Assembly: GCA_003142595.1 (NCBI GenBank)
Contig: PLMU01000018.1
Span: 1-64,000 of the forward strand
DNA: 64,000 nucleotides
From: Phycisphaerales bacterium
GTDB taxonomy: Bacteria > Planctomycetota > Phycisphaerae > Sedimentisphaerales > UBA12454
Direction of reading: 5' to 3'
Below, piece after piece: positions 36,335-38,366 of this stretch (position 1 is the stretch's first letter; every line of letters begins with the position of its first letter). Both the position numbers and the translations under genes were made by a program. A model generated the notes under the pieces. The model saw only the letters and a list, made by a program, of their open reading frames with translations. It did not search any database and was not told the origin of the DNA.

Positions 36335-37267
36335 TTATTCAACATCAAGCATAATATTATCAATAAGTCTCGCCGCGCCGAGCTTTACAGCAAGAGCAAT
36401 AAGAACCTGTCCTTTTACCTCTTTTATTTCGTTAAGCGTTTGTGCATCGACAATACTAATATAATCAACCTTTATCTGTTTACTGATTTTTAAAATTTTC
36501 TCCATCTCTTTTTTCAGCTCACTGCTTTTTCTTACGCCTGCTTTGATAAAAAGTTCTGCCTCCTGCAGGGCGGCATACAGCAAAACCGCATCTTTTCTTT
36601 CTTTGGCATTAAGATATTTATTTCTGCTGCTCATCGCCAAACCGTCTTTTTCGCGAACCGTCGGACAAACTACAATTTTCAAAGGCATATTCAAATCAGC
36701 AACCATTCGCTGCACAATGATTGCCTGTTGAGCGTCCTTTTGGCCGAAGAACGCAAAATCAGGCCGGATAATATTAAAAAGTTTTGCACAGACCGTAGCA
36801 ACGCCTCTGAAATGGCCGGGCCGGCTTTTGCCGCATAAAGGCTCGCTGAGTTTTTCGACATTTATCCAGGTAAGATTTTTTTCCGGATACATCCCGTTAG
36901 AGACAACTACTTTTGACTCTGCCATAGTTGATTTGAGGTCAGACTTACTTGATTTATTGTCTCTAACGGGATACATCTGCTCAACTGTCGGAGCGAAAAC
37001 AACATTAACGCCTAATTTTTTACACGCCTTGACATCTGCATCGAAAGGACGTGGGTATTTGTCGATATCTTCACCGGGGCCGAATTGCGCAGGATTAACA
37101 AAGATACTTACAACTACAAAATCAGTTTGCTTCTTTGCTGCTTTTATAAGTGAAAAATGTCCTTCGTGCAGGGCCCCCATCGTCGGCACAAGACCGATTT
37201 TCTTGCCGGCCGCCTTGGCTTTTGCGACAGCTTTCCTTGTTTTTTCTATTATTTCGATAATTTCCAT
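36335..37267 (-). CDS. panC: Pantothenate synthetase PanC carrying an in-frame insert
   Basis: A 310-residue enzyme (from the ATG at 37267; an upstream TTG is less likely) that joins pantoate and beta-alanine using ATP. Family landmarks: LVPTMGALHEGHFSLIKAAK, IFVNPAQFGPGEDIDKYPR, EPLCGKSRPGHFRGVATV, FGQKDAQQAIIVQRM and RKDGLAMSSRN-like REKDGLAMSSRNKYL. Between MYP (about 114-116) and the next MYP lies a 28-residue segment (VRDNKSSKSDLKSTMAES..) not expected in this family; it matches the palindromic insertion described at 36885-36976. The reading frame is kept, so the protein is probably functional. Confidence 0.93.
   Translation of the reverse strand: MEIIEIIEKTRKAVAKAKAAGKKIGLVPTMGALHEGHFSLIKAAKKQTDFVVVSIFVNPAQFGPGEDIDKYPRPFDADVKACKKLGVNVVFAPTVEQMYPVRDNKSSKSDLKSTMAESKVVVSNGMYPEKNLTWINVEKLSEPLCGKSRPGHFRGVATVCAKLFNIIRPDFAFFGQKDAQQAIIVQRMVADLNMPLKIVVCPTVREKDGLAMSSRNKYLNAKERKDAVLLYAALQEAELFIKAGVRKSSELKKEMEKILKISKQIKVDYISIVDAQTLNEIKEVKGQVLIALAVKLGAARLIDNIMLDVE
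36885..36976 (-). mobile_element. Palindromic MITE-like element inserted in panC
   Basis: Two 16-base arms, ATCCCGTTAGAGACAA (36891-36906) and TTGTCTCTAACGGGAT (36957-36972), are perfect inverted repeats. They are enclosed by an 8-base direct repeat GGATACAT (36885-36892 and 36969-36976), 84 bases apart, consistent with a target-site duplication. The 84 bases equal 28 codons and duplicate the residues MYP on both sides. No transposase is encoded, so movement in trans is inferred. Confidence 0.75.
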
Positions 37268-37271
37268 ATAT

Positions 37272-38366
37272 CTAATCGTGCCCAATATAATAATTAATTT
37301 TTTTGCCGATTGAATCGATTTCTTCTTTTTGTCTGAAATCTATCGTACCGGCATCTATCGTTATAACAGGACAGCGGTTAAACGTCTCGAAAAGTTTTTC
37401 ATAGCCGATATGAATTTTCTCAAGAAAATTCAAGTCAATGCCCTGCTCGTATGGCCGGCTGCGTTTTTTTATCCGCTCAAGAGCTTTTTGCGGCGGAAGT
37501 TTAAGATATATCGCCAATACCGGGTCGGCAACAGTTTTACTCATCACGGCATTGACTTTTCTATACATCTCGAACTGCACCGAGTCGAGCCATAGCCGCG
37601 CGTAAATCATTTCCTTGTCCATTATATAATCGCTAACCGCAGCCTCGGAGCCGGCAAAATTCTCCGGCTTTAACTGCTCGCACTGACTTAGTAAAAAAAA
37701 CATCTGGCTGTCGAGAGCAAGAGACTTTTGACCCGCGTAAACTTTCGGCAAAAACGGATTGGCGTCATAGGCCTCTTTTATCAGTCTAAATCCGAAAATA
37801 TCTCTTAAGCCTTCGGAAAGAGTAGTTTTTCCTGCGCCGATTACGCCGGCAATCGAAACAAGCTGCGGCCGATGCTCGTCAAAATAAAAATCCTTACCGC
37901 TCAATCGGCTGTAAAGAACGGAAACATTTTCCTTAAGAACCGGATGAACAATCTGGCCGCCAAGTTCGCAAAGCCCTTTTAGTACAAACGACCTCAAATG
38001 CATCTGCCGATGCGGTAAACACAAGTCTTTCTTCTTAATAGTCTTACCACCGAACAGTAAAATATCGAGGTCGATTGTCCTGCTTGACCATTTTTCACTC
38101 GATTTTTTTCTGCCAAGCGCCACTTCTATCTTTTTTAAAACTTTTAAAAGTTTGTCTGCTTTTAAATTTGTCTTAATCTGGGCAACGCAGTTGAGATAGT
38201 TTCGCTGCGATTTTTCGGCAAGTGGTTTTGTCTCTATCACTTTGCTTGTGCCGAAAAGTTTTATGTGTTTATCGGCAGAGAGCCGCTCGATGGCTTTTTT
38301 GATATTATTTTCCCTGCTGCCGAGATTGCTGCCAAGGCCGATATAAGCTGTTACTTCACCGGGCAT
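37272..38366 (-). CDS. folK: HPPK (FolK) - deoxynucleoside kinase fusion
   Basis: A 364-residue two-domain protein. Residues 1-160 are 6-hydroxymethyl-7,8-dihydropterin pyrophosphokinase for folate synthesis (AYIGLGSNLGSRENNIKKAI, FLNCVAQI-like YLNCVAQIKT, SSRTIDLDILLFGG, LPHRQMHLRSFVLKGL). Residues about 165-364 resemble a deoxynucleoside kinase: P-loop VSIAGVIGAGKTTLSEGL, the substrate Glu in LIKEAYDANPFLP, the family's DR[S]-like region near VSDYIMDKEMIYARLWL, and the LID arginines in RIKKRSRPYEQ. The two activities are joined by a short linker. It lies between dapL and panC and starts 9 bases after dapL ends. Confidence 0.9.
   Translation of the reverse strand: MPGEVTAYIGLGSNLGSRENNIKKAIERLSADKHIKLFGTSKVIETKPLAEKSQRNYLNCVAQIKTNLKADKLLKVLKKIEVALGRKKSSEKWSSRTIDLDILLFGGKTIKKKDLCLPHRQMHLRSFVLKGLCELGGQIVHPVLKENVSVLYSRLSGKDFYFDEHRPQLVSIAGVIGAGKTTLSEGLRDIFGFRLIKEAYDANPFLPKVYAGQKSLALDSQMFFLLSQCEQLKPENFAGSEAAVSDYIMDKEMIYARLWLDSVQFEMYRKVNAVMSKTVADPVLAIYLKLPPQKALERIKKRSRPYEQGIDLNFLEKIHIGYEKLFETFNRCPVITIDAGTIDFRQKEEIDSIGKKINYYIGHD

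Follow-up and report, generated by a model that had tools for sequence, protein, structure and literature searches.

Palindromes that lie in frame in genes and are translated are best known from Rickettsia. A review (PMC10969869) credits Ogata et al. (2000, 2002) with the Rickettsia palindromic elements (RPEs), short transposase-free palindromes of about 150 bp that are translated within unrelated housekeeping genes; according to PMC6649704, RPE arms lose identity with age. Prokaryotic MITEs share terminal inverted repeats, a target duplication, the lack of a transposase of their own, and many copies (reviewed in PMC10969869). Nematomorph mitochondria contain inverted repeats within coding sequence whose arms are mutually identical; these differ from one another in sequence and length, and the accessible part of PMC6649704 describes no fixed arm motif. 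The byp elements of Magnusiomyces mitochondria, which the same paper cites, are also palindromes in many protein genes, but are not translated.

Here we describe a palindromic insert in the panC gene of a Phycisphaerales bacterium (assembly GCA_003142595.1), located in a 64,000-nucleotide stretch of contig PLMU01000018.1 (the window). We consider it very probable that the insert is a non-autonomous, MITE-like mobile palindrome that is translated through and whose mobiliser is unidentified. It has terminal inverted repeats, a 4-bp YNNR target duplication, and both dispersed copies and empty sites, as a MITE should, but no autonomous element sharing its ends was found in the sequence searched, most copies are intragenic, and interiors differ widely under the same arms. 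The sequence-only reading had likened it to RPEs. That comparison fits as a similarity in how the elements work, as in-frame palindromes in unrelated genes, while common descent has not been shown, nor has membership in any named family. Unlike RPEs, the present elements mostly span 48–78 bp, have 12-nt arms nearly invariant over several phyla and an archaeon, and combine a YNNR duplication with a target-matched terminal pair and mostly paired arm changes. They are set apart from the nematomorph palindromes as mobile additions whose arm motif is fixed and whose target is duplicated, and from byps in being in frame and stop-free. We found nothing in the open-access literature on the arm sequence or its peptide motifs, or on palindromes or MITEs in Omnitrophica or Patescibacteria, and the family is apparently undescribed. 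Three papers mention both Parcubacteria and palindromic sequences, but their titles do not point to elements of this kind.

The panC Insert and Its Empty Sites

The PanC protein matches PF02569 with an E-value of 1.6e-110 over residues 3–306, and also matches 21 PDB sequences, the majority as two stretches broken at the insert. The arms and flanking repeat proposed from sequence alone are exactly as claimed (Table 1); a repeat search scores the arm pair as 21 nt and 90% complementary. Two G of the 8-base repeat are part of the arm (CGGG) on the right side; the repeat proper is ATACAT, which contains the 4-bp duplication TACA. A 78-bp palindrome (CCCGTTAGAGACA...TGTCTCTAACGGG) and a 6-bp direct repeat thus add up to the predicted 84 bp, or 28 codons, and the residues MYP are indeed duplicated, panC reading ...EQ MYP VRDNKSSKSDLKSTMAESKVVVSNG MYP EKN... 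on the minus strand. As also claimed, no transposase is encoded inside the element.

Table 1. Features of the panC region and of other copies discussed in the text. Positions without a prefix refer to the window.
Feature	Location	Strand	Basis or remark
panC, pantoate--beta-alanine ligase	36335..37267	-	Pfam PF02569; 310 aa, 28-aa insert counted in
8-base direct repeat GGATACAT	36885-36892, 36969-36976		Spacing 84 nt
Direct repeat proper, ATACAT	36887-36892, 36971-36976
Palindromic element, 78-bp core	36893..36970	-	Repeat search, folding, orthologue alignment; translation PVRDNKSSKSDLKSTMAESKVVVSNG
Arm 1, CCCGTTAGAGAC	36893..36904		16-nt perfect arm reaches 36891-36906; arm recurs in 115 stretches
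Arm 2, GTCTCTAACGGG	36959..36970		16-nt perfect arm reaches 36957-36972; arm recurs in 115 stretches
Variable interior, 54 nt	36905..36958		Compared with other interiors in the text
Target-site duplication TACA (YNNR), left copy	36888..36891		Rule from 156-180 copies
Target-site duplication TACA, right copy	36972..36975		Rule from 156-180 copies
Terminal base of element, left (T)	36892..36892		Complementary to 36971; such complementarity in 175/180 copies
Terminal base of element, right (A)	36971..36971		Complementary to 36892
HPPK (FolK) fused to deoxynucleoside kinase	37272-38366		Adjoins panC and panD
Copy, 57 bp	C14:30708-30764		In glycine cleavage T (GcvT) gene
Copy, 63 bp	C14:32915-32977		In Sua5/phosphatase gene
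Copy, 63 bp	C15:167778-167840		In HemN/HemW-like gene
Nested cluster	L130:5952-6140		In argS (arginyl-tRNA synthetase)
Copy, 102 bp	L049:1473-1574		Enlarged inner hairpin
Copies before prepilin cleavage motif	L066:5846, L066:6384, L083:3381, L030:1501, L080:6451, L101:3166, L119:2997		And three others
Start-codon copies	L070:3210, L115:6844, L155:2867, L160:1395, L110:5405		And others; mostly Patescibacteria

The insert strand folds at −37.5 kcal/mol compared to −17.6 in shuffles (z = −6.9). In a structure model of PanC, the insert has a pLDDT of about 35–40 (disordered or unmodelled), while most of the enzyme exceeds 90. We infer that PanC remains functional with the insert staying in the protein, but have no data on expression or activity.

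Exactly these 28 residues are absent, cleanly, from the PanC of 20 of 22 compared genomes; the other two, from the same genus, carry an insert of equal length at the identical position. Across the three panC copies the arm bases are 24/24 identical, compared to only 16/54 for the interiors and 525/855 for the rest of the gene. At fourfold sites the contrast is 5/5 in the arms to 12/71 (p = 3e-4), suggestive of nucleotide-level constraint on the arms. However, the copies do not simply follow the gene tree: G005, which has the insert, clusters with the insert-free G004, G001, and G002, and the interior of the window's copy is closer to that of an lpdA copy in G009 (38/54 identical) than to those of the other panC copies (27 and 32). 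The order of insertion and loss events is therefore undetermined. The data allow either a single old insertion followed by losses or recurrent insertion at a favoured site, so the constraint argument is no more than suggestive.

Distribution of the Family

The window's genome (2.28 Mb) contains three further complete copies, all in frame and with interiors unlike each other. Exact-arm copies are present in 6 of 59 relatives (the window's genome counted), one of which has 16, while a sample of 392 genomes from across the phylum yielded one only in the window's own genome. A search of one genome per species returned 115 exact-arm stretches from about 58 assemblies (a hand count from accession prefixes), comprising some 28 Patescibacteria, 12 Omnitrophota, 7 Phycisphaerae/planctomycetes, 3 Desulfobacterota, 1 Nitrospirae, and 1 Nanoarchaeota, plus 6 more assemblies. 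Viral contigs gave zero exact arm-pair matches, as did a control search with the reversed pattern. With unlinked occurrences of the arm pair in this and many other genomes, and nothing from the control, its recurrence is beyond chance; because the search pattern is strict, all copy counts are lower bounds. Most of the genomes compared are metagenome bins.

The family is far wider than Phycisphaerae and larger than the sequence-only reading supposed. With other genomic copies and PanC empty sites both found, that reading's proposal of a mobile palindrome is supported, and the patchy distribution is as expected of a mobile element. In-frame translated palindromes thus now extend to Patescibacteria, Omnitrophota, planctomycetes, and an archaeon. 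Some of these carriers have very small genomes, and the invaded genes, essential ones among them, include argS, shikimate kinase, sua5, and ftsQ.

Architecture and Conservation of the Arms

The lengths of 156 non-redundant copies peak at 48, 51, 60, 63, and 66 bp. In the same set, the flanking YNNR duplication has match fractions of 0.88, 0.79, 0.79, and 0.89 at its four positions; it is exact in 120 of 180 copies. The element extends one base beyond the arms on each side (Y-CCCG...CGGG-R), and these terminal bases are complementary in 97% of the 156 copies and in 175/180 of the larger set. A 6-bp duplication was also considered; a better fit, for either strand, is a 5-bp duplication together with a complementary base. 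The terminal pair also depends on the target: in 34 of 36 copies from G009 it matches the base just outside one of the two duplications, left or right (24.3 in shuffles). As these copies come from one genome, cross-genome base composition does not account for the match.

The commonest form, of 63 bp, folds into a three-way junction with an outer stem and two inner hairpins. Among 57 distinct 63-mers the pairs covary, 1427 of 1596 cells being paired compared to 1340 ± 6 in shuffles, with copy relatedness uncorrected. None of the Rfam covariance models matched any of six loci at E ≤ 0.5. In the 102-bp copy at L049, a long GC-rich palindrome, which may itself be a nested repeat, expands the first inner hairpin.

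CCCGTTAGA is nearly invariant over the phyla, while the inner three arm bases vary in pairs. Where arms depart from the consensus, the same change occurs in both arms in 31 copies and does not in 15, in a search that tolerated at most four mismatches overall and preferred well-paired arms, and so leans to paired changes. An identical 39-nt interior is found in three copies, of which one shows GAAAC/GTTTC in its two arms and another a change in a single arm.

One explanation for these patterns, compatible with a mobile palindrome, is that host selection, and not mobility alone, maintains the arms because they act as a DNA or RNA signal for the host. The intact panC arms beside a diverged interior and gene, and the near invariance of CCCGTTAGA alongside paired changes in the inner three arm bases favour this. 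However, the gene trees permit independent younger insertions at one site, which would leave intact arms without any host benefit, and most relatives lack elements altogether. The arms at other shared sites are also 22–24/24 identical, but copies there were found through their arms; this bias led us to set that evidence aside, along with the observation that arms decay more slowly than duplications. We regard a host function as possible but improbable on present evidence.

For the mobile palindrome itself, the following steps are proposed. An enzyme supplied in trans would recognise the CCCGTTAGA arms or the hairpin and make a staggered cut at YNNR, and the ends would be joined such that the target templates the last base pair; the recognition is inferred, and the cutting, joining, and templating are inferred from the scars. 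Transposition into the MYP codons of panC would have duplicated the target, leaving an insert that presumably now contributes a loop of 28 residues to the protein. The data themselves show the number of copies, the empty sites, the duplicated target, nested copies, the kept reading frame, and paired arm changes. A more specific proposal, which we advance only tentatively, is a trans-phylum hairpin family with an undescribed mechanism, in which arm templates arm and the terminal pair is copied from the target, specialised for in-frame gene invasion. If this hypothesis is correct, every new copy would be a perfect palindrome.

Search for a Mobilising Enzyme

No autonomous partner with shared ends was found in the analysed sequence or, using exact arms only, in eight copy-bearing genomes. 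A scan for insertion sequence lengths gave six candidate arm pairs longer than 130 bp, most joining the ends of neighbouring short copies; the candidate at L130 is a nested cluster, and the one at L176 (189 bp) has no open frame across it.

CCYG-like ends and a TTAA-like target point to IS1380/piggyBac. PF13701 is nearly absent from carriers, however: one fragment, in G009 only, is above the cut-off, G005 and G002 have weaker matches, and none occurs in the carriers G000, G006, G010, G012, G440, G441, and G444. IS1380 is thus unlikely to be the mobiliser.

A REP-type palindrome moved by a Y1 (RAYT) transposase would fit the presence of Y1_Tnp genes in 17 of the 18 genomes searched, including all searched carriers. 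These genes are equally common in genomes without copies, however, and no intact arm pair lies at any Y1 locus inspected; at L251 a degenerate copy lies some 1.4 kb from the Y1 gene, and L269 has a single arm. REP elements are not known to duplicate their target, whereas the present elements do. Without a clear link to Y1, we rejected membership in REP/RAYT, which has little chance of being correct.

Insertion into Coding Sequence

To assess frame preservation, we rebuilt each empty site and counted frames of at least 150 codons, so that a copy's own open frame was not used. The insertion length is a multiple of three in 102 in-gene copies and not in 3, compared to 49 and 23 elsewhere (p = 8e-8). 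Of the three codon phases, the arms use two (57 and 34 copies), giving PVRD...VSNG or PLET...SLTG peptides, and never the third, which holds TAG. Host genes include those for shikimate kinase, Sua5, GcvT, an RsmD-like protein, a lipoamide-dehydrogenase-like protein, exonuclease VII, UvrD, an FtsQ-type protein, dihydrouridine synthase, YceG, DprA, and an archaeal amino acid kinase. Two properties allow the family to persist in genes: the usual element length and the duplication together make a multiple of three, and on both strands the arms lack stops in two frames out of three. The family also accounts for recurrent odd peptides (PVRD...SNG and PLET...SLTG) among predicted proteins, a potential source of error in annotation and structure prediction.

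Alternatively, the product could lack the insert, either because the RNA is processed or because translation bypasses the stretch between the duplicated codons, as for byp of Magnusiomyces. A stable hairpin does sit between duplicated codons, and the arms are maintained as hairpins, but a removed insert would have no need to be a stop-free multiple of three, as in-gene copies nearly always are; we consider this alternative very unlikely. The idea that the 28 residues are a native PanC loop of the lineage, palindromic by chance, has only the position and length common to the two congeneric genomes in its favour and is refuted by the same arms in unrelated genes; the segment is also missing from the other 20 orthologues and from almost every solved structure that matched.

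Movement, Nesting, and Preferred Sites

Movement of the mobile palindrome is evident elsewhere as well. The same 45-nt interior occurs at two unrelated places in one bin, with unrelated flanks. Empty sites in rsmD are clean in relatives with a full-length match, except G006 and G009, and those in gcvT are clean outside the window's genome, some matches being partial. At L130, two elements adjoin and a third, with a duplication of its own, is nested in the loop of one of them, all in frame. Together, the defined target rule, the empty sites, and the nested copies make the movement and tolerance of coding palindromes testable.

Two kinds of site recur, a few of the copies in the site survey being weak-armed. 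Ten copies sit directly 5′ of the prepilin motif G|FTLIE (SLTG|FTLIE), where the insert would be lost with the leader peptide, leaving the mature protein untouched. At two of these sites, orthologous copies seem, in a by-eye comparison, to lie in opposite orientation, which would mean that insertion there is recurrent or that the interior can invert. In 18 cases, a long frame starts at an ATG or GTG that opens the right duplication. Here the terminal purine and the duplicated TGNR restore the ATG or GTG at the gene head, and such copies could possibly affect regulation.
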